A stretch of DNA of 53,955 bases from Chthonomonas sp. (lineage in GTDB: Bacteria; Armatimonadota; Fimbriimonadia; Fimbriimonadales; Fimbriimonadaceae), in contig JAEURP010000021.1 in the NCBI GenBank assembly GCA_016788585.1, positions 1-53,955 on the forward strand, given 5' to 3'. The notes under the pieces were generated by a model. It had not been told where the DNA came from. It saw nothing but the letters and a program-made list of their open reading frames with translations, and searched no databases. Every line of letters begins with the position of its first letter. Position 1 is the stretch's first letter. Shown piece after piece: positions 11,450 through 51,831 of this stretch. The position numbers and the translations under genes are program-made.

Positions 11450-11778
11450 TTGGCAGACTCGAGGTCTTCGGTGCGGACCAGCAAAACATAGTTAGCCGGA
11501 AACTCGACTTCTTCCTTCGTGAGGAGATTGCGGGCTTCCTCGGAGACCTGCGATACAAATCGCTCTCGCATTCGCCGAGTCGCCTCTGCATGAACCGACA
11601 GGGCAGGATCAACCATATGCTCCGGGTCGACCTTTACGGCCACCTCATCTTTGCTGTAAATGCTCTCGATGACCCCGACCAAGCCCCTCATATGATCGAA
11701 ATACCGATTTGATTTTCGATCATCAACTGTGACCTCTCGTGAGACCACTCGAACCCGATCGCCTACCTTTAGCGCCAT
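11446..11778 (-). CDS. Small KOW-like (SH3-barrel) protein, function unknown
   Basis: 110 residues. The N-terminus VGDRVRVVSREVT and the later GLVGVIESIYSKDEVAVKVD resemble the beta-barrel of KOW/NusG-type nucleic-acid or ribosome-binding domains. The rest is charged and mostly helical. I cannot assign a function. It heads an overlapping gene set with the nitroreductase and the FAH-fold protein. TAAAAT ends 6 nt before the ATG with no Shine-Dalgarno sequence, suggesting a leaderless transcript. It diverges from ftsY, with 37 bp between start codons. Confidence 0.65.
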   Translation of the reverse strand: MALKVGDRVRVVSREVTVDDRKSNRYFDHMRGLVGVIESIYSKDEVAVKVDPEHMVDPALSVHAEATRRMRERFVSQVSEEARNLLTKEEVEFPANYVLLVRTEDLESAK

Positions 11779-11815
11779 GCCGACATTTTACCAGCCTGCC
11801 ATACTGGAGGCTGGC

Positions 11816-28444: not shown

Positions 28445-29458
28445 CTAGACCTGAGAGACAATCATTGTCTCTTGGGTCTCTTTTGTTCCTTCAAGAAAAG
28501 CCCCAAGAACCTCGGCCACTTCATCGTAGCTGTCGCATCGGGTTAGCCTTCCACGCACTTCTGCCGCGCCGGGCTCGCCCTTGATGTACATTGGGATCTG
28601 TCCCCTCAGGTGCCGCACGGCCTTGAGTTCATCACCTTCAAACTCGATCATGAGCTTGAGGTGCTCAAGCGCCGTGTCAACCCGATCTTGAATTGTTGGC
28701 GGCGGCATCGGTGGCTTTCCTTCAAGTCGGAGACGAATATCACGCAGGGCCCACGGGTTGCTGATCGCGGCCCGACCGACCATCACCCCGTCGCAGCCCG
28801 TATCTGTCAGCATGCGCTCGGCATCGTCAGGAGTCCTCACGTCGCCATTGCCGGCGAGCGGCACTGTGACCACTTCCCGCATCGCCTTAATTAGGTCCCA
28901 ATCCGCCTGCCCCTCAAAACCTTGCTTTGCAAACCTCGCATGGAGCGTGATCATTTGCGCCCCGGCGTCTTGAAATCGCTTGGCCAGTTCAGGAGCCGCG
29001 AAAAGGGAATAGTCCCATCCGGCGCGCACTTTCACCGTCACCGGAATCTCAACTGCCCGAACAACCCGAGAAACAATTTCGGTGGCAAGGTCAGGGTCTT
29101 TGAGTAGCGCCGCCCCGGATCCGGTCTTAACCACCTTTGGCACCCAGCAGCCCATATTGATATCGAGAATGTCGCAGCCCGCATCGGCGCAAACTTTGGC
29201 CGTCTCGACCATCGTCTCCACTTCGCCACCAAAGATCTGAATCCCAAGTGGCCGTTCCTCATTGGCTATGACCAGCTTTTTGTAGGTTTTCTTGGCGTTA
29301 TAGTGGATCGCCATCGCACTCACGAACTCCGTGAACATGAGCCCAGGCCCCCCGATGCGCTTGGCAATCGTGCGCATGGGGAGGTTGCTAACGTCCTCCA
29401 TCGGGGCCAAAATCAGGCGATTCTCGATGGGGATCGGGCCGACGTGAAATGCGGTCAA
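28445..29458 (-). CDS. dusB: tRNA-dihydrouridine synthase, DusB type
   Basis: 337 residues. DusB-like features: LAPMEDVSNLPMR, VSAMAIHY, IQIFGG, DILDINMGC with catalytic Cys104, VKVRAGWD, TLHARFAKQGF, GNGDVRTPDDA and GVMVGRAAISNPW. After the Cys the usual Pro is replaced by Trp (NMGCW versus NMGCP), which is uncommon. The start is TTG at 29458; TACAAT on the minus strand ends exactly 7 nt before it and no Shine-Dalgarno sequence exists, so a leaderless transcript is likely. It diverges from the GNAT gene, with 24 bp between the start codons, and converges with pnp. Confidence 0.9.
   Translation of the reverse strand: MTAFHVGPIPIENRLILAPMEDVSNLPMRTIAKRIGGPGLMFTEFVSAMAIHYNAKKTYKKLVIANEERPLGIQIFGGEVETMVETAKVCADAGCDILDINMGCWVPKVVKTGSGAALLKDPDLATEIVSRVVRAVEIPVTVKVRAGWDYSLFAAPELAKRFQDAGAQMITLHARFAKQGFEGQADWDLIKAMREVVTVPLAGNGDVRTPDDAERMLTDTGCDGVMVGRAAISNPWALRDIRLRLEGKPPMPPPTIQDRVDTALEHLKLMIEFEGDELKAVRHLRGQIPMYIKGEPGAAEVRGRLTRCDSYDEVAEVLGAFLEGTKETQETMIVSQV
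28454..28472. terminator. Possible pnp terminator hairpin inside dusB 3' end
   Basis: AGAGACAA (28454-28461) and TTGTCTCT (28465-28472) form a perfect 8-bp stem with the 3-nt loop TCA, 28 nt after the pnp stop. A TTTT run follows about 8 nt later. The stem overlaps the last codons of the convergent dusB gene. The gap between stem and T-run makes it a weak candidate. Confidence 0.35.
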
Positions 29459-29465
29459 GAGCTAG

Positions 29466-29475
29466 ATTGTACACT
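29466..29475. promoter_or_regulatory. Overlapping divergent -10 boxes for dusB and the GNAT gene
   Basis: The ten bases ATTGTACACT read TACACT on the plus strand (29470-29475), ending 7 nt before the GNAT ATG at 29483. On the minus strand they read TACAAT (29471 down to 29466), ending 7 nt before the dusB TTG at 29458. The two boxes share the palindromic core TGTA. No -35 of good match was found on either side; those regions would lie inside the opposite genes. Confidence 0.55.
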
Positions 29476-29482
29476 GGCACCC

Positions 29483-33367: not shown

Positions 33368-33392
33368 GGGCTTCAGCTTACTTGAGCGGTAA

Positions 33393-34548: not shown

Positions 34549-34562
34549 TAAACTAAATACTC

Positions 34563-37138: not shown

Positions 37139-38092
37139 GTGCATCAATTTCGAAACCTCGTCATCGCCGCTTGTCTGGCCCTTACGACCTTAGCCAGCGC
37201 CCAAAGCGACCCAACAAAACCAATTGCAACCGTTAACGGCGAGAGCATTGGCGGAATGGAGTATTTCCGCCGAATGGAATTCTTGCCGGGCTATGGCAAG
37301 ATGGTGGGGAATCGCTTCATCGAAGGTTGGCCGGGCTACCTAGCTCTTCAGCAGATCATCAACGAGCGGATTCTCCTTCAGTTAGCGAAAGAAAAGGCGG
37401 TCGCTCCCAAGGATGCCGATATTGCTGCAGAGCTCAACTTGCGCCTCAAGAACTCTCCAAAGCTACTGGAGACACTAGCGAAGGTTGGAATCACAAAGGC
37501 CGACCTCGAGCACCAAATTCGCGTAGACCTTTCCGAATTCAACCTTATTACGATGGGCGTCAACGTGACTGACCAAGAGGTTGAGCAGCATTATAAAGAT
37601 AACCCAACCCGATTTACGGTGCCCAAACGGTACAAGCTGAGACTGATCGCCGTGACCGAAGAGAAAAAATCGCAGGTGGATACTGCCCTAGCTGGCGGTA
37701 AGACCTTTGCCGATGTTGCCCGCGACATGAGCAGCGACCCAAGTGCGCTGCAAGGAGGCGCAATTGGAGATGTGCCGGCGACCGCCCTAGCGGAAGCGGT
37801 AACCAAAATGCTCGATCTCACCAAGATAGGCACCACGACCGAATGGATTAAAGGCGCCTCTGGTGGCTGGTTCAAGTTCTTGGTTGAAGACGTGAAGCCG
37901 TCCGAGAAGATCCCGCTCGACGCGAACACAAAGGCTCAGCTTCGCCGATCGCTGATGCTCGATCGAGGCCGGGTAAGAAATAACCTCGACAAGATGATGA
38001 CGGACGCGAGAAAGAAGGCGAAGATTACGGTTGTCCAGCCTGGACTCAATGAGATGATCCAGGAGTGGCAGAAGAGCGTCACCGGCGACTAG
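37139..38092 (+). CDS. Exported parvulin-type peptidyl-prolyl isomerase/foldase (SurA/PrsA-like)
   Basis: 317 residues from GTG 37139. Signal peptide ends in ASAQS (about 22). A SurA-N-like helical domain (about 25-145; VNGESIGGMEYFRRME, QQIINERILLQLA) is followed by a single divergent rotamase domain (about 150-265: KRYKLRLIAV, then SDPSALQGGAIGDVP) and a helical end. It should help proteins fold after export. Rotamase residues are incomplete, so it may act mainly as a chaperone. It starts 45 nt after the PLP enzyme gene. Confidence 0.8.
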   Translation: MHQFRNLVIAACLALTTLASAQSDPTKPIATVNGESIGGMEYFRRMEFLPGYGKMVGNRFIEGWPGYLALQQIINERILLQLAKEKAVAPKDADIAAELNLRLKNSPKLLETLAKVGITKADLEHQIRVDLSEFNLITMGVNVTDQEVEQHYKDNPTRFTVPKRYKLRLIAVTEEKKSQVDTALAGGKTFADVARDMSSDPSALQGGAIGDVPATALAEAVTKMLDLTKIGTTTEWIKGASGGWFKFLVEDVKPSEKIPLDANTKAQLRRSLMLDRGRVRNNLDKMMTDARKKAKITVVQPGLNEMIQEWQKSVTGD

Positions 38093-38101
38093 AATCTCCC
38101 T

Positions 38102-41636: not shown

Positions 41637-43016
41637 TTACGCCTTCAGCTTACTAACGATGCCCTCAAGGAACACCGCATTGTTCGGCGTTCGCTTAAGC
41701 AGCTTGATCATCGAATCCGTTGCTTCGTAGCTCTTCTCTTGATTCGCAAGTAGTCGGTGCAACTGCACAACGCCTTCCAAGAAGTGCTTGCTGAAGAGCT
41801 TCTCTTCATGCCGTGTCGAGGATCGCTTCACGTCGATCGCTGGCCAAATGCGTCGCTCGGCGAGCTCGCGGTCGAGCACGATTTCCATGTTGCCAGTGCC
41901 CTTGAATTCTTCAAAAATAGACTCGTCCATCTTCGAACCCGTCTCAACAAGCGCAGTGGCGATGATCGTCAGCGATCCGCCCTCTTCAATGTTTCGCGCC
42001 GCACCGAAGAAGCGACGTGGACGATACAAAGCAGCAGGATCGAGACCGCCCGAAAGCGTTCGCCCCGATGGGTTAATGGTCAGGTTGCTCGCGCGAGAAA
42101 GTCGCGTAATCGAGTCGAGCAAAATCACCACATCCTTGCCGCTTTCGACCATGCGCTTTGCTTGGTCCAAACAAAGGTCCGTAACCCGCATGTGGTTCTC
42201 GGCGGGCTCGTCAAAGGTACTGGAAATCACTTGCCCCTTCACAAAGCGGCGCATGTCCGTAACTTCTTCCGGCCGTTCGTCAACCAGGAGCACCATCAGG
42301 ACCGCCTCCGGATCGTTGATCGCGATCGCATTCGCGATCTGCTTCACGATTGTCGTCTTACCGGCCTTCGGCGGCGCAACGATCAGGCCGCGCGAACCCT
42401 TACCGATTGGAGAAATGAGGTCAATGATGCGACCGCAGATGTTCTCTGGATCGGTCTCCATAACGTAGCGCTCTTCTGGGAAAAGCGGGGTCAACTTGTC
42501 AAAATCTCGGCGAGTCTGAAGTTCTGGAGCAGCGGTGCCAAAGCCATTTACGCTCTCAACTCGGAGCATTCCGCGGTACTTCTCGCCTTCGCGAAGTTCG
42601 CGTGCAAGGCCATAGACCGTATCGCCTTGGCGAAGCGCGTGCTTCTTCACTTGGTTCTGGCTCACGTAAATATCGTTTGAACCGGGAAGGTAATTCTCGC
42701 GTCGCAAGAACCCAAAGCCATCATTGGCGAGCTCCAAAATGCCCTTGCCATAGACCTGGTCTGGGTTGGCCGCCTGCAAAAGCTGCTCGATGACCTGCCA
42801 GCGATGCTGGTCCATGTCGATCTTCTGCTTCTTGCACTCCTTCGCCAATTCGGCGGCGGTCATCTTATCAAAGTGGTTAAAGTCTATTTCGGGCAGACCT
42901 TCAAGTTCGGCTTGATCTACTTGAGGTAGACCGCCTTCCTTGCGGCCGCGGCCACGATTACGATTTTGGCCTTGGTTTTGGCCACTAGACTTCCGAGGGC
43001 GGAATGTGTGCGTCAT
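41637..43016 (-). CDS. rho: Transcription termination factor Rho
   Basis: 459 residues. The N-terminal 30 residues are basic and low-complexity (QNQGQNRNRGRGRKEGG). A Rho_N helical domain (about 50-85), the cold-shock-like RNA-binding domain (YGKGILELANDGFGFLR) and the hexameric ATPase follow: Walker A APPKAGKTT (214-222), VLLVDERPEEVTDM, VILLDSITRLSRA (Walker B) and the Q/R-loop region. It ends Rho-dependent transcripts with ATP. It is downstream of hpt on the same strand with a 146-nt gap. Confidence 0.97.
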   Translation of the reverse strand: MTHTFRPRKSSGQNQGQNRNRGRGRKEGGLPQVDQAELEGLPEIDFNHFDKMTAAELAKECKKQKIDMDQHRWQVIEQLLQAANPDQVYGKGILELANDGFGFLRRENYLPGSNDIYVSQNQVKKHALRQGDTVYGLARELREGEKYRGMLRVESVNGFGTAAPELQTRRDFDKLTPLFPEERYVMETDPENICGRIIDLISPIGKGSRGLIVAPPKAGKTTIVKQIANAIAINDPEAVLMVLLVDERPEEVTDMRRFVKGQVISSTFDEPAENHMRVTDLCLDQAKRMVESGKDVVILLDSITRLSRASNLTINPSGRTLSGGLDPAALYRPRRFFGAARNIEEGGSLTIIATALVETGSKMDESIFEEFKGTGNMEIVLDRELAERRIWPAIDVKRSSTRHEEKLFSKHFLEGVVQLHRLLANQEKSYEATDSMIKLLKRTPNNAVFLEGIVSKLKA

Positions 43017-43162
43017 GCGCTTGTTAAATGTTCCTGATTGGGCTTCCGTGAAGGAATGAGGTGAATCTTGAACCTAGCCCACCGGGCAGACGCGAGAGCG
43101 TCGTCTGGGAGTTGAGACGCACGAACTAACGAATAGTTATCGCGAGCGCGAGCGTTTTGGGT
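43017..43162 (-). promoter_or_regulatory. hpt-rho spacer with hairpin, probable rho leader
   Basis: This 146-nt gap holds a stable hairpin GACGC-GAGA-GCGTC (43089-43102), with alternative pairing of CAGAC (43087-43091) to GTCTG (43103-43107). A TTGAAC (minus strand, near 43157-43162) and an AT-rich GATAACTATT (near 43136-43145) hint at a promoter. rho leaders are often attenuated by Rho itself; no specific element was recognised. The hairpin could equally end the hpt transcript. Confidence 0.35.
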
Positions 43163-43699
43163 TCAATTGGATGCGTCGTCGATGAGTTCGGCGATGTAAG
43201 GGAGGTTTCGATACCTTTCCCCGTGATCCAATCCATATCCTACCACAAACTTCTTAGGAATCTCGAATCCAACGTAATCTACGTTCATTTCATGGGTCCG
43301 GGCCGCTGGCTTACTAAGTAAGGTCGCCACGCGCAGGGCCTTTGGCTTTCGTGTCTGCCAGATCTGCATCAGGTGCGTGAGGGTCAGGCCGGTATCAATA
43401 ATGTCCTCGACAATGAGCACATTCTTGCCTTCAATATTCACGTCAAGGTCTTTGCGAATTTGCACAATGCCGCTACTAGACTTCTCCGCACCATAGCTAC
43501 TGGTTTGCACGAAGTCCACCTTGACGTTGATCCCCAAGTGGCGGCACAAATCGGCAACAAAGAGAAATGAACCCTTCAAAACGCCTACGACAATGAGTTC
43601 CTCGTCGCCAAAGTCTCGCCGGATATCGACGGCAATCTCTTTGGTTCTTTCCGCGATCTCGTCGGCGGTGATCAAGGGCTTCAGCATCGTCTGGGTCAT
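43163..43699 (-). CDS. hpt: Hypoxanthine phosphoribosyltransferase
   Basis: 178 residues, normal size. Type I PRTase: GVLKGSFLFVADL (PPi loop), flexible-loop SSYG, the PRPP-binding signature VLIVEDIIDTGLTL, and the purine-site KKFVVGYGLDHGERYRNLPY (in part). It converts hypoxanthine (and guanine) plus PRPP to IMP/GMP in purine salvage. It diverges from the glycosyltransferase gene with only 9 nt between start codons. Confidence 0.96.
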   Translation of the reverse strand: MTQTMLKPLITADEIAERTKEIAVDIRRDFGDEELIVVGVLKGSFLFVADLCRHLGINVKVDFVQTSSYGAEKSSSGIVQIRKDLDVNIEGKNVLIVEDIIDTGLTLTHLMQIWQTRKPKALRVATLLSKPAARTHEMNVDYVGFEIPKKFVVGYGLDHGERYRNLPYIAELIDDASN

Positions 43700-43708
43700 G
43701 GCTAGATT

Positions 43709-44434
43709 ATGTCGCCTAGTATCATAGAGCGTATCGCCGCCACACTATCCCCCGATGTCTCAGTTTTGGTTCCTGCGCTCAATGAGCAGGACACAATCCG
43801 TGAGGTCATCGATCGCCTCTTAGCCGTGCCGCTTGACCTAGAAGTTATCGTGGTCAATGATGGCAGTACCGATGGAACAGCAGCGATATTGACCGAGTAT
43901 GGCGGCCAGATTAAGTTGGTGACTCACTTGACCAAAAGCGGTAAGGGTCGAGCTATCCGGAGTGGTCTCGAAGTCGCAAGTGGTCGTGTCGTCGTCATCC
44001 AGGATGCTGACTTAGAGTATTTTCCCGAGGAAATCCCCGCTCTAGTAGCCCCCATCTTGGAGGGCCGATCGAAAGTGGTCTACGGTACGCGATTTTCAGG
44101 TGGCTACCCGAAAGGAATGGCGCTTCCAAATAAAATCGTCAACTGGGGCCTTGCGCTGGCGTCTCGGTTGCTCTACGGCCAAAAGATTACCGATGAGGCG
44201 ACGTGCTACAAGGCAGTCGAGACGAACTTGCTCAAGTCTCTAGCTTTGCAGTGCACCGGCTTCGAGTTCTGCCCCGAAGTCACAGCAAAGGTCAGTCGCG
44301 TTGGCCAAAGAATCGCAGAGATTCCCATTAGGTACGTTCCACGCAATAAGATGGCCGGTAAGAAAATCCGATGGACCGACGCCCCTATCGCCTTCTGGAC
44401 TCTTCTAAAGTACCGCTTCTGGAAACGCCCATGA
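43709..44434 (+). CDS. Family 2 glycosyltransferase (dolichyl-phosphate-mannose-synthase-like)
   Basis: 241 residues. GT-A fold: SVLVPALNEQDTIREVIDRL, VVNDGSTDGT, the DXD-like QDADLEY and VVYGTRFSGG, then the acceptor region ITDEATCYKAVETNLLKSL (in part). No C-terminal membrane helices, unlike DPM1 long forms. It likely glycosylates a polyprenyl phosphate, by family. The start is 9 nt from the divergent hpt start; its stop overlaps the DinB-like gene (ATGA). Confidence 0.88.
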   Translation: MSPSIIERIAATLSPDVSVLVPALNEQDTIREVIDRLLAVPLDLEVIVVNDGSTDGTAAILTEYGGQIKLVTHLTKSGKGRAIRSGLEVASGRVVVIQDADLEYFPEEIPALVAPILEGRSKVVYGTRFSGGYPKGMALPNKIVNWGLALASRLLYGQKITDEATCYKAVETNLLKSLALQCTGFEFCPEVTAKVSRVGQRIAEIPIRYVPRNKMAGKKIRWTDAPIAFWTLLKYRFWKRP

Positions 44435-44916
44435 CCCCAGACCTTAGCACCCTTCTCAAACTCTGGGACACCGCCGTATGGGAGTTCTCACTCGTCTTTG
44501 AAGACCTCAGCGACGAGGATGTCTGGCGCAGTCCCCAAGCTGGTGTACCCAGCGTCGGCGTCCAAGCCTGCCATCTCGCCCGCTCAGAAAACTCCTCCTT
44601 CGGACAGTCGGTCGAGAGCCCGCTCGACATCGACGGCATGGGCTACTTCCCATACGATCCGAAAGCGCCCCTCCCAATTCATCTGGCAGCCGCAGAAGTC
44701 TTCGCCGAATACGAGCGAGTTCACAAAGCCGCAATCGCGTGGATTCATGCAAGAGGCTTCGCGCTCTCCGACCCGTACGAAAACCCTAAGTTTGAAAACC
44801 ACGAGGGCATGACCTGGGGCGACCGCATCGAATACATGCCGTTCCATGTCGCCTACCACACCGGTCAAGCGTACATGGCCCGCCACATCATGGGCCACGA
44901 CACAACAGAAAACTAA
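44431..44916 (+). CDS. DinB-like four-helix metal-binding protein
   Basis: 161 residues from ATG 44431. Pattern of DinB/DfsB proteins: helix 1 LLKLWDTAVWEFSLVFEDLSDEDVW (in part), a first His in VQACHLARSE, and the final pair in MPFHVAYHTGQAYMARH. The three His would bind a divalent metal. Family members include thiol-dependent transferases and many uncharacterised proteins; no specific function is visible. Translationally coupled to the glycosyltransferase gene. Confidence 0.8.
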   Translation: MTPDLSTLLKLWDTAVWEFSLVFEDLSDEDVWRSPQAGVPSVGVQACHLARSENSSFGQSVESPLDIDGMGYFPYDPKAPLPIHLAAAEVFAEYERVHKAAIAWIHARGFALSDPYENPKFENHEGMTWGDRIEYMPFHVAYHTGQAYMARHIMGHDTTEN

Positions 44917-44959
44917 TCTGCGACCAAGACGCACGCAGGCCCCGTCCCATCTAGTTAAG

Positions 44960-46201
44960 ATGTCAACCGAATCTATGAAAGGCACGGAGTTGCAGAGCAA
45001 GATCGTAACGCCACTCGTGATCGTTGCCGCTCTAGGCTACTTTGTCGATATCTTCGATCTCCTGCTGTTCAGCATTCTTCGTGTTCCAAGCCTTACTTCG
45101 CTTGGGTACACGAAGCAACAAGTCACCGACCTCGGTCTCCAGCTGCTCAACTGGCAGATGGCAGGAATGCTGATCGGGGGCCTTCTGTGGGGCGTCATGG
45201 GCGACCGAAAGGGTCGCATTGCAGTTCTCTTTGGCAGCATTCTGCTGTATTCCGTGGCGAACATCGCAAATGGTTTGGTTCAAAACTACGAGATGTATGC
45301 GGTTTGGCGGTTTTTGGCCGGAGTCGGCTTGGCCGGAGAATTGGGCGCCGGCATTACGCTCGTTGCCGAAACAGTGGCAAAGGAGAAGCGAGGCTACAGT
45401 ACGACACTGGTGGCGACCGTCGGAGTTTTAGGTGCCGTGGTGGCGGCCTTCGTTGCCAAATCGGTGGACTGGCGAACGGCATACTTTATTGGCGGCGGAT
45501 TAGGACTCGGTTTGCTGGTCCTCCGAATCACCGTCTATGAGTCGGGGATGTTCGAGCGAGTGAAGACCAGCGAGCACGTAAGGGGCAGCCTAAAAATGCT
45601 GTTTGCTGACCGCTCGCGGTTGATGCGCTACCTTCATTGCATTCTGTGCGGCCTTCCCATTTGGTTTGTGGTCGGGATCTTTGTAACGCTCGCCCCTGAA
45701 TTTGGAGAAGCGCTCGGAGTAACGCCTAAGCCAAACGCCTTGAACGCAGTCCTCTACTGCTACATCGGCCTTAGCGTTGGGGACTTGCTGAGCGGATTGA
45801 TCAGCCAGTGGATCAAGAGTCGAAAGAAGGCGATCATGCTTTTCATCTTTGCTTCCTTGTTGATGAGCATCGCCTACCTCAACTTGCGCGGCGTCTCTGA
45901 AGCTACATTCAATTGGGTTTGCATCGGCTTGGGTATCGCAATCGGTTACTGGGCTGTTTTTGTCACTACCGCCGCGGAGCAGTTTGGAACCAATCTTCGC
46001 GCGACGGTGGCGACATCGGTTCCAAACTTCATCCGGGGCTCGGTCATCATCTTCACTCTTGCGTTTGCCGCGCTCAAGCCCTCGTTCGGGATATTGAATG
46101 CTGGCATGGTCCTAACACTGGTGGCATGCGGCCTAGGCTTGTTCAGTACAGCGATGCTTCGCGAGTCGTTTGGCCAAGAGCTAGATTTTGTTGAGGCGTA
46201 G
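44960..46201 (+). CDS. MFS transporter
   Basis: 413 residues, twelve predicted membrane helices. The loop 2-3 signature GVMGDRKGRIAVLFGS and the helix 5-6 region KEKRGYSTTLVATVGVLGAV (in part) mark the metabolite:H+ symporter-like branch. The first helix is preceded by a short cytoplasmic segment. The substrate is unknown. ATG 44960 was chosen because the upstream extension is hydrophilic and overlaps the DinB-like gene. Confidence 0.88.
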   Translation: MSTESMKGTELQSKIVTPLVIVAALGYFVDIFDLLLFSILRVPSLTSLGYTKQQVTDLGLQLLNWQMAGMLIGGLLWGVMGDRKGRIAVLFGSILLYSVANIANGLVQNYEMYAVWRFLAGVGLAGELGAGITLVAETVAKEKRGYSTTLVATVGVLGAVVAAFVAKSVDWRTAYFIGGGLGLGLLVLRITVYESGMFERVKTSEHVRGSLKMLFADRSRLMRYLHCILCGLPIWFVVGIFVTLAPEFGEALGVTPKPNALNAVLYCYIGLSVGDLLSGLISQWIKSRKKAIMLFIFASLLMSIAYLNLRGVSEATFNWVCIGLGIAIGYWAVFVTTAAEQFGTNLRATVATSVPNFIRGSVIIFTLAFAALKPSFGILNAGMVLTLVACGLGLFSTAMLRESFGQELDFVEA

Positions 46202-46218
46202 CCGCACTCAAACCCCTC

Positions 46219-46247
46219 TTGACAGATAATCCAAACTTCGATATCGT
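46219..46247 (+). promoter_or_regulatory. Consensus promoter for a leaderless lipoprotein mRNA
   Basis: TTGACA (46219-46224), a spacer of exactly 17 nt, TATCGT (46242-46247), then 7 nt to the ATG at 46255. With transcription normally starting about 7 nt after the -10 box, the RNA would begin at or within a base or two of the start codon. No Shine-Dalgarno sequence exists. Confidence 0.75.
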
Positions 46248-46254
46248 TGTTGTT

Positions 46255-46995
46255 ATGAAGCGCGCTGTTTCAAGCCTTGTTTTTGCGATTCCTGTGCTGT
46301 TATCTCTTCAGTCCTGTGGCGGCGACCTACATTTCGGCGACGTCAGTCCGGGCTTGTACTTGCTGTCTTATGAGCGTTCCCGCCCCGCCGGAAGGGCGAT
46401 CATTACGGGTGATATCATGGTCGAGGTCGATGAGAAGGGCGGGGTTGACTTTGTTCTCCACGACTTAGTCTTGGGTAGCACTTTCGGAACCGGGAACATC
46501 GATGACCGCGGGAATTTCACCGCGACTTCGGGTTCATCTGTTACCGGGTTCCGCGGCGACCCGACGGTCACCATCGAAGGGCGGGTCCGTGGGTCAGGAG
46601 AGAATGCAAGCGTTGAGGCGACGGTCTCCGGAGATATCGACGCCGACGTTTCGGGCACTTATTACTCGGATGGGCAGACCAGCCCATGGGTAGCAGACTA
46701 TGACGGAAACTTGACCGGAAGCTTATCCGGAATCTTGGACATCGATGTCTTTTCGGATGGAACTCTCACGTCATCGCTTGGAGTTGGGGACGACTTCTTT
46801 ACAGGCAGTGGAACTGTCTCCTCTGTTGGATTCGGAACGATCAACTTGACCTTGGCGCCAGGGCGTCAAGGCGATGAACTCACTCTATACGGGTACTTCT
46901 ATATTCACGAAGGTGTCCAATATGCCAGCGGCACCTATGAAGGCACGGTAGACGGCAGCAGTGTCAACGGTAACTGGACAGCCGAAAGAGACTAA
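46255..46995 (+). CDS. Putative lipoprotein, unknown function
   Basis: 246 residues. The signal peptide ends in the lipobox LQSC (Cys about 21). The mature part is a beta-rich, Gly/Ser/Asp/Thr-rich chain with repeating strand pairs (GNFTATSGSSVTGF, ASVEATVSGDIDADVSGTYY, GNLTGSLSGILDIDVF in part), ending SSVNGNWTAERD. I recognise no family. A TTG at 46219 would extend the frame, but it coincides with the -35 box, so the ATG is preferred. Confidence 0.8.
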   Translation: MKRAVSSLVFAIPVLLSLQSCGGDLHFGDVSPGLYLLSYERSRPAGRAIITGDIMVEVDEKGGVDFVLHDLVLGSTFGTGNIDDRGNFTATSGSSVTGFRGDPTVTIEGRVRGSGENASVEATVSGDIDADVSGTYYSDGQTSPWVADYDGNLTGSLSGILDIDVFSDGTLTSSLGVGDDFFTGSGTVSSVGFGTINLTLAPGRQGDELTLYGYFYIHEGVQYASGTYEGTVDGSSVNGNWTAERD

Positions 46996-47014
46996 AGAAG
47001 CGACCGGAGCAATG

Positions 47015-47051
47015 AAACTAGGGGGTTAGCGAATCGCTAACCCCCTAGTTT
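47015..47051. terminator. Perfect bidirectional terminator
   Basis: Two 16-nt arms (47015-47030 and 47036-47051) pair perfectly around GAATC. The stem is bounded by AAA on the left and TTT on the right, so it works as an intrinsic terminator in both directions. It lies between the lipoprotein gene (stop 46995) and the convergent PEP-CTERM gene (end 47073). Confidence 0.9.
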
Positions 47052-47072
47052 AATAATTAAAGTACTTCTAGG

Positions 47073-47738
47073 CTATCGTCGCCGCCGTCTCGCGAGCACT
47101 CCTAAAGCAGCACCCAAACTGATCAGTGTCGCGGGTTCGGGAACGGTGGTCGGTGCGACAAACTGAGCCACCGGCGTTATTGCAACATCATCCCAGAACG
47201 TTGTTGCTCCGTCTGGCACGATTCCCCCAGCCCCGGCCGTAGCATTGACCACCCGAACCACCACGCTGGGCTGGGTGACTGTAAATGTTGTGTAGGCGAA
47301 GTGCCACTTGTCCTCATGAGATGAGTTCATGTTTGTGATGCCCATTCCCGTGTACGGGGCGCCAGCCATCACATCGATGTATGCCATCCCATCTTGCCAG
47401 ACCGTGTCTGGCTTGATGAAAGCGCTTAAAACGTACGTTTCACCAACGGTGAGGTTGGTCAGAGTGCCAGAGGCATATCCGCCAAAGGTCGCGAGCCGGG
47501 TCATTCGCATTCCGTAGTCGCCACGATAGGCAGCTTGACTTTCGCGAAAGACCTGCCCTTGTCCCCATCCTCCTTCATAGCCAAACCAAGCCAGCGAGTT
47601 AGTAGCCTCAAAGTCGCCCCCCGTAACTGTAGTGTAGTTGCCAGAGCCCGGCAAGAAAGGTCCCTGGATAAGACCTGACTGGGCCCTGGAGGCCACCGAG
47701 GCGCCAACTGCCAAAACGATGATTCCAATGCGGTTCAT
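47073..47738 (-). CDS. PEP-CTERM protein
   Basis: 221 residues from ATG 47738 (AGGAG 8 nt upstream; a second ATG two codons earlier is too close). Signal peptide to about residue 20. The body resembles a carbohydrate-binding jelly-roll (GGDFEATNSLAWFGYEGGW, YRGDYGMRMTR, FWDDVAI), a pattern typical of CBM-like 'NPG-x-E' modules. The C-terminus VPEPATLISLGAALGVLARRRRR (in part) is a PEP-CTERM tag: the PEP motif, a helix and Arg run, recognised by exosortase and lost on export. Confidence 0.88.
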   Translation of the reverse strand: MNRIGIIVLAVGASVASRAQSGLIQGPFLPGSGNYTTVTGGDFEATNSLAWFGYEGGWGQGQVFRESQAAYRGDYGMRMTRLATFGGYASGTLTNLTVGETYVLSAFIKPDTVWQDGMAYIDVMAGAPYTGMGITNMNSSHEDKWHFAYTTFTVTQPSVVVRVVNATAGAGGIVPDGATTFWDDVAITPVAQFVAPTTVPEPATLISLGAALGVLARRRRR

Positions 47739-47802
47739 TTGCATATCTCCTATCGACCTGATGTCGATGCTCGAAGGCTAGCCCGGAGGCATTACATAGG
47801 CA

Positions 47803-49527
47803 TTACATGCTCTCGAGTGCACGATACGCCTCCGCCAGCGCGTGCTTCGAGTCTTTTGGCATCAACTTTTCAGAGCCCTTGCCGACACGTGACCGGCGCC
47901 ACAAAAACAGCTCCACCATCGGTAAGTTGTGCTCCTCTCGTAGTTTCCATCCTTGGCTAACCATCTCTTGCCCAAGATCCGGATGGGGCCCCATCGCGAG
48001 GCCGAGGCCGATCGTCTCAAGAGTGTTTACATGCAGTCGGACACCAGATTGCCTAGCGGCGAGCCGAAGGGCTAGGCGGGCGAACCCAAGGCCTTCGGCG
48101 GTTCGATCCAGACCCATTGCGGCCCGAGCCAGAGTGGCAGCTGCGCGGCAAGTGGTGTCGAGCGTGCCGATTTTTCGGGAGGCGTCGAAGGCTGCTTGTG
48201 CAGTTCTAACTGATTCTGAGTACCGCTCCAAATCCGCCATTAGCCCAGCGTGGTTAGATCTCGTTGTTGCGAGGCGTGCTGCGATGTCCTTTCCTTCAAG
48301 CGCTTCAAAGTACGCGATGCACTCTGCGAACAGGGCATCGGCTTCGTCAAAGTGGGTCAGCATCCATAGGCAGCTTGCTTGCGTCGTTTGCGCCAAGCGT
48401 TTCTCATGGTCCCAACCGTGGGTCTCACAAAGCTGCAGTAGGTCGTGCAGATAGTCCAGCCCCGCTTTCAATTCACCGGCAAACACACAGCCGAAACTAA
48501 GTGAGTTGAGGAGCCTATGCCGGTCCCGAGGATCAAGATCTTTGCAAAGTAATGCTTGACTCTCCGCGATTGACTCTGGCCATCGCTCCATGTATCCCAA
48601 GGTGGTCGCCCTTGCGACCCGGCAAGAGATGGTAGACCCGTCTGCGGCTTGTGAAGCTCCCAAGGCGGCTTCAAGCAATCGCAGGCTCCCCGTCGGTTCC
48701 CGTTTGCATTCCGCTTCGAAGGCTGGACTCGCCAAGAAGTTCAACAGGATATCGGGTGCCTGCTTCAGGCAACTCTCAGAGTATCTAAGAAGTACGTCCT
48801 CCTCTGCCTTGCCCAGCTGCCCGGACCGCTGCGTCGCGCTAGCAAGCAAGCGTTGCGCGAAGGCGATGATTGGTGCCGAGAAATCCATGCCCTCAGACTG
48901 TAGGCTCCGCCTCGCCCTGTTCCAGACCTGAAGTGTTTCGGCAGAAGTGCCGAGTCGAGACGATGCGCTCAATGCGTGCCGCCAGAGCTCGTCATCGTGG
49001 GGCAAATGCTTGAGACCGTGATCGGCGGCCTCCTTCTGTAGCCCCCAATCCGACTCTTGTTCAGCAAGTTCGGCGAGCCGCGTTAGGTATTCGACCGCTT
49101 CGAGACTCCAGGCCGTTTGCTCGCGTTCAACCCAGGGCCCCTCCAACTGGGGCAAGAGTTGGCTGGAAAGCAGGTCGAGATGGGCCCTCAAGCCACACAT
49201 CTCTTCCGCGTCGGACTGAGGCCTAAGGTCAGAAAGCCGCTGGCGTAACTCCAATAGGTCCAGGCCCACCTGCCGCTCAATTCCAACGTTGTCGCCGTCT
49301 TCGGCCAATGGAACCACGTCCCGCAGTCTGGAGAGTCCGACTCGCAGGCGGTTGAGCGCTTCCTTTCGTTCGATGTTCGGGTAGAGCAGTTCGACAACTT
49401 CGCCACGCGACACCAGGGCTGGCGCACGGAGGGCCAGCAGAGCAAGCAAGGGAAAGTGCCCGCTCTTAATCTCTCGCCCGTCTGACAAGAGCCGACCGCG
49501 GCCTAATAGCTCAACCCGTGCTCCCAT
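47803..49527 (-). CDS. BTAD-domain (AfsR/SARP-like) transcriptional regulator
   Basis: 574 residues. N-terminal winged helix (about 1-95: LLGRGRLLSDGREIKSGHFPLLALLALRAP in part, LNRLRVGLSRLRDVV), then the bacterial transcriptional activator domain (about 96-240) and a long helical TPR-like region. The pattern matches SARP/LuxR-independent AfsR-type regulators, which lack the ATPase module here. TAATCT ends 6 nt before the ATG. It sits among PEP-CTERM genes and may control them; inference only. Confidence 0.8.
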   Translation of the reverse strand: MGARVELLGRGRLLSDGREIKSGHFPLLALLALRAPALVSRGEVVELLYPNIERKEALNRLRVGLSRLRDVVPLAEDGDNVGIERQVGLDLLELRQRLSDLRPQSDAEEMCGLRAHLDLLSSQLLPQLEGPWVEREQTAWSLEAVEYLTRLAELAEQESDWGLQKEAADHGLKHLPHDDELWRHALSASSRLGTSAETLQVWNRARRSLQSEGMDFSAPIIAFAQRLLASATQRSGQLGKAEEDVLLRYSESCLKQAPDILLNFLASPAFEAECKREPTGSLRLLEAALGASQAADGSTISCRVARATTLGYMERWPESIAESQALLCKDLDPRDRHRLLNSLSFGCVFAGELKAGLDYLHDLLQLCETHGWDHEKRLAQTTQASCLWMLTHFDEADALFAECIAYFEALEGKDIAARLATTRSNHAGLMADLERYSESVRTAQAAFDASRKIGTLDTTCRAAATLARAAMGLDRTAEGLGFARLALRLAARQSGVRLHVNTLETIGLGLAMGPHPDLGQEMVSQGWKLREEHNLPMVELFLWRRSRVGKGSEKLMPKDSKHALAEAYRALESM

Positions 49528-49546
49528 CCCATGAGATTACTTGGTG

Positions 49547-50161
49547 TTAGCGCGTGGGTAGTCTAAGATACCGTCGGCCCACCGTCGGTGTAATGATTCG
49601 ACCGCTCGGCTCCTTAAACTCGATCCGATAGGTGTCTTCGGTGTTCGGGTAGTCATTTGCGGCCAGCACTTTGGCGGGGTGCCATTCGCGGCGATAAAGG
49701 TAAAGGCACGCATCCCCAGCCCTGAAAGGCGCAGGCTCATTGAAGAACCTCATTGGCCCTGTTTCGATGTAAACCGAGTTGCTCGATCCGACGTACTTGA
49801 CTCCGGCGCCCAGCGCCTCGCCAAGGAACCGCAACGGTACGTAAGTGTGGCGATTATTGACAACTAGCGGTGGCTGGTCGAGCGTTAAGGTTCTCCCGTC
49901 GACCATCGCCTCAGCCCGCCCGAGCTGAAGCGTTATCGTGCGCTCCGAACGCCATGCCATGATCTGCTTCGTCGAACTGTCGAAGTAGACGACGGCTCCC
50001 AGAATGTCAAAGGTCTCGCGAAGGCCGAGAAGTGTCCGCCCTCCGCGCAGGATCGCTGGCTCGCGCAGGTTCTCCTCCTTGCCGTCGATGAATACGTGCA
50101 CCTCCTGTGCAACCGCAAGCCCCGAACAGAGCGCACAAAGTGACGCTACCAATGCTCTCAT
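49547..50161 (-). CDS. Exported protein with copper-amine-oxidase N-terminal-like (stalk) domain
   Basis: 204 residues from ATG 50161. Signal peptide MRALVASLCALCSGLAVAQ, cleaved about residue 19. VHVFIDGKEENL, GRTLLGLRETFDILGA and TYVPLRFLGEALGAGVKY form the repeat pair of the Cu_amine_oxidN1 family, a common surface 'stalk' module. The C-terminal region has a Tudor/SH3-like feel (YRREWHPAKVLA, YRIEFKE). Function unknown. TAGATT ends 8 nt before the ATG. Confidence 0.8.
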   Translation of the reverse strand: MRALVASLCALCSGLAVAQEVHVFIDGKEENLREPAILRGGRTLLGLRETFDILGAVVYFDSSTKQIMAWRSERTITLQLGRAEAMVDGRTLTLDQPPLVVNNRHTYVPLRFLGEALGAGVKYVGSSNSVYIETGPMRFFNEPAPFRAGDACLYLYRREWHPAKVLAANDYPNTEDTYRIEFKEPSGRIITPTVGRRYLRLPTR

Positions 50162-51054: not shown

Positions 51055-51831
51055 ATGGTTCGACGTTCTTTTATTCTGTCCCTGGCTTTGGTGAGCCTCA
51101 CCACCGTTCCTGCCGCACGCGCGGCGGCGTCATTCATCATCGCTTATGATGATGCGGCGGATTCGGCCTATAACTCCGGCTGGGCCAATGGCTCAAATGG
51201 TGGCTATGGCTTTGGCGCGTGGTCGCATTCCGCGCTCGGCATGTTTGCGATGGGCGATTCAAATGCCAACGGAACCCTCGGCGGCCCAGGAATCAATGTC
51301 GGCGGCCGGGCTTGGCAAGCCGAGCTTAATCCCGGCTGGACGGGAGCGGCGGCCGTGCGCTCGCTAGGCACCTTTGGCGTCGGCGATAGCCTGGAGGTGG
51401 ACGTGGACTTTGGGATCGCGCCAACCCCAGGGCATGGAGTCGCGATCTTTGGTAGCAGTGACTACTGTCAAGTTCAAGCGATCGGATCGTCTTCCGGCAA
51501 TCTCCTCATCAATACGTCGGCAACCACGGTGGTCACCAGCATCCCCTACAGCGACGGCGGATATCGCGTCACGTTCGACCTGCTGAGCGCCACTTCGGCC
51601 AACGTCACGATCTTCAGTATGGCGAGCAGCGCGGCTCAAACCTTGACCCTGGCCTACGTCTCCGGCTCCGGTACCCAGATGATGTCGCTTCAAACCACTA
51701 ACCCATCGGCCGGCCAAGCCGTTTATGCGAGCCGCATGAAAATCACCTCACCCGTGCCCGAACCCGCCAGCATGCTCGCGCTTGGTTTTGGCCTCGCCAG
51801 CCTGTTGCGCCGCCGAACCGCCCGAAGCTAG
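51055..51831 (+). CDS. PEP-CTERM protein
   Basis: 258 residues. Signal peptide MVRRSFILSLALVSLTTVPAA with cleavage near ARAA. The Gly/Ser/Asn-rich body (YNSGWANGSNGGYGFGAW, RAWQAELNPGWTGAAAV) matches a jelly-roll-like exported domain. The end PVPEPASMLALGFGLASLLRR (in part) is the PEP-CTERM tag. GAGGAG lies 3 nt upstream of the ATG. No exosortase gene is in the window. It is one of three PEP-CTERM genes within 5 kb. Confidence 0.88.
   Translation: MVRRSFILSLALVSLTTVPAARAAASFIIAYDDAADSAYNSGWANGSNGGYGFGAWSHSALGMFAMGDSNANGTLGGPGINVGGRAWQAELNPGWTGAAAVRSLGTFGVGDSLEVDVDFGIAPTPGHGVAIFGSSDYCQVQAIGSSSGNLLINTSATTVVTSIPYSDGGYRVTFDLLSATSANVTIFSMASSAAQTLTLAYVSGSGTQMMSLQTTNPSAGQAVYASRMKITSPVPEPASMLALGFGLASLLRRRTARS

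Follow-up and report, generated by a model that had tools for sequence, protein, structure and literature searches.

Leaderless genes marked by the motif TANNNT have long been known in Actinobacteria and Deinococcus-Thermus (PMC3160421). For Deinococcus-Thermus, published reports (Zheng 2011, PMC3160421; Zhong 2025, PMC12340547) describe TANNNT roughly 12 bp before the start codon without a Shine-Dalgarno sequence, a −35 element missing from most such genes, a second class of GGAG type alongside, and a share of roughly 30–40% of genes. Work on D. radiodurans reports that leaderless genes are driven by the −10 motif and are expressed more strongly when a −35 is added 17 bp upstream (PMC12340547). 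In Mycobacterium tuberculosis and other Actinobacteria, a TANNNT −10 likewise lies at the start codon, and leaderless and Shine-Dalgarno genes are mixed within the genome (PMC3898074); starts were mapped experimentally there, whereas the present analysis is computational only. Armatimonadota are not named in the text of PMC3160421, and literature searches for leaderless genes with Armatimonadetes, Armatimonadota or Fimbriimonas returned nothing on the subject; the GeneMarkS-2 survey may contain such genomes. Shine-Dalgarno use has been reported as 25% in Fimbriimonadia versus 70% in Chthonomonadetes (PMC10783764).

The window analysed here is a stretch of 53,955 nt, contig 21 from an uncultured Armatimonadota bacterium whose genome (2.38 Mb, 95% complete) belongs to the Fimbriimonadaceae. 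Rho encoded in the window is 93% identical to that of a Fimbriimonadaceae MAG, and all of its strong matches with a named phylum come from Armatimonadota. On direct reading, the preliminary description of a site preceding a lipoprotein gene proved exact: TTGACA, 17 nt, TATCGT, 7 nt and ATG follow one another (Table 1), and no GGAG, GAGG or AGGA occurs in the 20 nt preceding the start codon. TATCGT matches TATAAT at four of six positions, and the site has the sigma70/sigmaA form (a TTGACA-like −35, a spacer of 16–18 nt and TANNNT). It resembles the canonical E. coli sigma70 promoter in its TTGACA, its 17-nt spacing and a −10 with A at the second and T at the sixth position, but differs from it in the absence of a Shine-Dalgarno leader. 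Two features of the Zheng 2011 class were likewise found, TANNNT at −13 (−12 in orthologues) and the absence of a Shine-Dalgarno sequence.

Table 1. Features of the lipoprotein gene and its predicted promoter, in positions of the window.
Feature	Position	Strand	Basis and remarks
−35 hexamer TTGACA, 6/6 of consensus	46219..46224	+	Direct reading and sigma70-like scan; 6/6 in L003 and L004
Spacer, 17 nt	46225..46241	+	Direct reading and orthologue comparison; length kept, letters diverged (6/17)
−10 hexamer TATCGT (TANNNT)	46242..46247	+	Direct reading, orthologues (TAAAGT) and genome-wide positional class
7-nt gap TGTTGTT, −10 to ATG	46248..46254	+	Predicted +1 at A46255 or at most about 3 nt before it, from sigma70 geometry
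ATG start codon of lipoprotein gene	46255–46257	+	Direct reading
In-frame TTG, 12-aa extension; the −35 box itself	46219..46221	+	Called as start by mechanical ORF callers
Lipoprotein gene, 246 aa, all-beta, without Pfam family	46255..46995	+	Inspection, Pfam search, homologue comparison and structure model
Lipobox LQSC, residues 18–21	codons 46306..46317	+	Inspection of the translation

The preliminary description had also proposed a genome-wide tally of TANNNT relative to gene starts. This was carried out over 2.36 Mb of the genome and 2204 genes called with a purpose-written dicodon model, and was strongly positive, although the fractions are approximate because the starts come from a simple home-made finder. 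TANNNT begins at −12 in 112 of 1265 unit-leading genes against a background of 15.2 per position (P ~3e-57), at −13, the position of the lipoprotein site, in 53 (P ~3e-14) and at −14 in 48; counts at −15, −16, −17 and −18 were 36, 26, 38 and 38 versus a background of 15. The excess amounts to about 200 of the 1265, a lower bound, and a −12 peak is seen in within-operon genes as well (32 versus 3.4). Shine-Dalgarno cores were found in 18/274 leaderless-like unit-leading genes versus 202/991 of the others (P 9e-9), and in 38% of within-operon genes versus 13% in a control window. The base at −1 is C in 127/274 leaderless-like genes versus 287/991 other unit-leading genes, which fits a C-A initiator with the A of the ATG as the first transcribed base. 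The trait was common to orthologue pairs with homology-fixed starts (16/34 versus 16/127, odds 6.2, P 4e-5; the pairs are partly non-independent and two are the lipoprotein gene's own), and sharing was not significant in the flanking control window of these pairs. Genes offering just one possible start numbered only 58, too few to decide. The same pipeline applied to E. coli K-12 gave no TANNNT peak (0.3× at −12) and Shine-Dalgarno sequences at 46%.

The pattern described as recurring is thus real across the genome, with its modal position one base nearer the start than at the lipoprotein site. The notion that this site anchors the others did not hold: recognisable −35 boxes are almost absent, and what defines the class is the −10 together with its spacing from the start codon. 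A −35 was rejected as a class feature, since matches to at least four of six TTGACA positions with spacers of 16–19 occurred in 44/239 cases versus 23 and 35 when the spacer window was displaced, and positions around −35 hold almost no information. The lipoprotein site is the most complete promoter of the class, and its perfect TTGACA is atypical. By analogy with D. radiodurans, where most such genes have no −35 and an added one raises expression, the TTGACA that occurs naturally here is probably the sign of a stronger promoter. The preferred forms are TAAACT, TATACT, TAGAAT and TACAAT, with weak G's at the two preceding bases. A distinct −10 form, CATAAT or CATACT, lies 5–8 nt before the start in 39 unit-leading genes, for example ahead of 25412 and 43699 on the minus strand, and this form had no −35 of its own in those genes. 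The system corresponds to the TANNNT leaderless class already known from Deinococcota and Actinomycetota. With Deinococcus-Thermus it shares the position of TANNNT, the missing Shine-Dalgarno sequence, the usual lack of a −35 and the coexistence of a second, GGAG-type class; it differs in phylum, in the frequent CATAAT and weak GG just before the −10, and in a lower share of genes, our excess being a lower bound.

On the sequence evidence, the site is very probably a housekeeping promoter whose −10 abuts the coding region and which yields a leaderless or leaderless-like lipoprotein mRNA, as one member of a genome-wide class in Fimbriimonadaceae. An RNA polymerase of sigma70/sigmaA type would recognise TTGACA and TATCGT and begin transcription at A46255 or within about 3 nt before it. 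The resulting mRNA would have no Shine-Dalgarno leader, and its 5'-terminal AUG would be read by a 70S or an initiator-tRNA-loaded ribosome. Across the class, TANNNT or CATAAT would act from 5–8 nt before unit-leading starts, usually without a −35, with downstream operon genes more often using Shine-Dalgarno sequences. Placement of the promoter for a leaderless mRNA, as first proposed, is supported by the genome-wide tally and by conservation between species. Transcription from the start codon itself is supported with a refinement, since the 7-nt gap would put the first base at the A of the ATG or no more than about 3 nt before it, and we therefore describe the transcript as leaderless or nearly so.

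How near is the question raised by the strongest alternative, which we consider unlikely: a genuine promoter with a very short leader (1–8 nt) and a start at G46252 or T46254. The 7-nt gap indeed sets the standard +1 at 46254, and the TANNNT excess extends to −15 to −18 of genes. However, RNA polymerase favours a purine at +1 preceded by a pyrimidine, and T46254-A46255 is such a step, ideal for a start at the A; moreover, the orthologues lie at the modal 6-nt gap and C is enriched at −1 throughout the class, all of which argue for the leaderless reading. A second, distal promoter may also serve the gene, or read-through from the major-facilitator (MFS) transporter gene that ends at 46201, leaving 53 nt to the lipoprotein ATG.

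Are the hexamers themselves meaningful? A sigma70-like scan of 43000–50000 found three sites, of which TTGACA-17-TATCGT is the best, and shuffles gave 3.0; at this level, a consensus match in 7 kb carries no meaning alone, which would suit a chance match with the gene transcribed from elsewhere, for example by MFS read-through. A search of the window for TTGACA-17-TANNNT-7-ATG with two mismatches gave 5 matches versus 1.7 expected, mostly away from gene starts. The exact arrangement occurs once in the 2.38 Mb genome and its reversed pattern not at all, and the chance of TTGACA-17-TANNNT with a 5–8 nt gap is about 1.25e-5 per upstream region. Orthologues in two congeneric genomes (G001 and G004; ~51% amino-acid identity) carry TTGACA-17-TAAAGT-6-ATG; these genomes are mutually close and together count as one comparison. 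Identity to the window is 6/6 in the −35, 4/6 in the −10 and a near-random 6/17 in the spacer, so that TTGACA and TA--GT are kept at exactly 17-nt spacing although the spacer is scrambled and the upstream gene is unrelated to that of the window. Boxes and spacing conserved around a scrambled spacer are the hallmark of a working promoter; judged by this conservation, the match is not a chance one, and we regard the coincidental reading as very improbable.

The lipoprotein N-terminus (MKRAVSSLVFAIPVLLSLQSC) has, by inspection, the positively charged n-region, hydrophobic core and lipobox of a lipoprotein, and C21-G22-G23-D24 is invariant across four homologues. A Pfam search with the 246-aa protein found no family, and the structure model is all-beta at low confidence (pLDDT 61), too weak for a fold search. 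Translation from the TTG at 46219, which would turn the promoter into coding sequence and is the start that mechanical callers pick, is less probable still: the orthologues align from the ATG and carry in-frame stops just upstream of it, and the extra residues would disrupt an otherwise normal signal peptide. A paralogue, L007 (G000 contig 11, 19679–20395), is ~35% identical and has TAGAAT 9 nt before its ATG, with TTGACA absent upstream. Two PEP-CTERM proteins are encoded just downstream of the lipoprotein gene (47073–47744, minus strand; 51055–51831, plus strand), which suggests an exosortase sorting system in the genome.

Elsewhere in the window, TANNNT lies 6–8 nt before the start of further genes (11764–11790, 33375–33380, 34549–34554 and 38090–38095), among them an overlapping divergent pair at 11777/11778. 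Another divergent pair, with starts at 29458 (minus) and 29483 (plus), has only 24 bp between its start codons (29459–29482) and shares a single symmetric −10, ATTGTACACT, which reads TACAAT on one strand and TACACT on the opposite one, both of them 7 nt away from their start codons; both products would be leaderless. Similar divergent units occur elsewhere in the genome at 17, 21 and 30 bp, and symmetric bidirectional promoters are known from E. coli (PMC12825309). Cooperation within such pairs was considered and rejected, the motif being present on both genes in 20/79 close pairs, about the expectation for independence.

To follow the class across the phylum without annotation, we took the ratio of TANAMT-6-ATG to TANAMT-15-ATG counts in 151 Armatimonadota genomes. 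Across the 33 genomes of Fimbriimonadaceae this ratio is 2.2, with a maximum of 5.7; it is 3.2 in family f17 and 2.1 in family f26, versus about 1 in most other families. Named loci of the Fimbriimonadia type show a 10-fold TANNNT peak at −12. Eight Armatimonadota genomes outside the order, sampled at 20 kb each, gave no −12 peak and had Shine-Dalgarno sequences in 47% of unit-leading genes, and these samples together with the 151-genome count led us to reject phylum-wide presence. Two genomes of family f17, G072 and G130, exceed all others with ratios of 6.1 and 5.2, placing their signal above that of the window's own family; G072 was one of the eight, so its 20-kb sample was unrepresentative. 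Two Fimbriimonadaceae genomes of 1.5 Mb (G032 and G206) have a ratio of 1.0, unlike their family, either because the leaderless habit was lost or because an AT-rich background masks it. At 36 Armatimonadota loci, the regions upstream of rho lacked a conserved −10 next to the start, which means that leaderlessness does not extend to every gene. This assembly contains no 16S gene, and the anti-Shine-Dalgarno CCTCC is intact in the 16S of family relatives, so the two modes of initiation can coexist. We lean slightly towards the view that leaderless, −10-adjacent expression was gained or lost several times within Armatimonadota, being strong in Fimbriimonadaceae, f17 and f26 and absent in most families.

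The presence and patchiness of the TANNNT leaderless mode in Armatimonadota appear to be new. Such a class would help to account for the low frequency of Shine-Dalgarno sequences published for Fimbriimonadia. Automatic gene calling will place starts wrongly in genomes of this kind; in the present case, the −35 box was itself taken for a TTG start. If repeated gain or loss is correct, Armatimonadota would constitute a natural experiment on what shifts genomes from Shine-Dalgarno to leaderless initiation, and the patchy spread makes the switch between the two modes testable by comparison.
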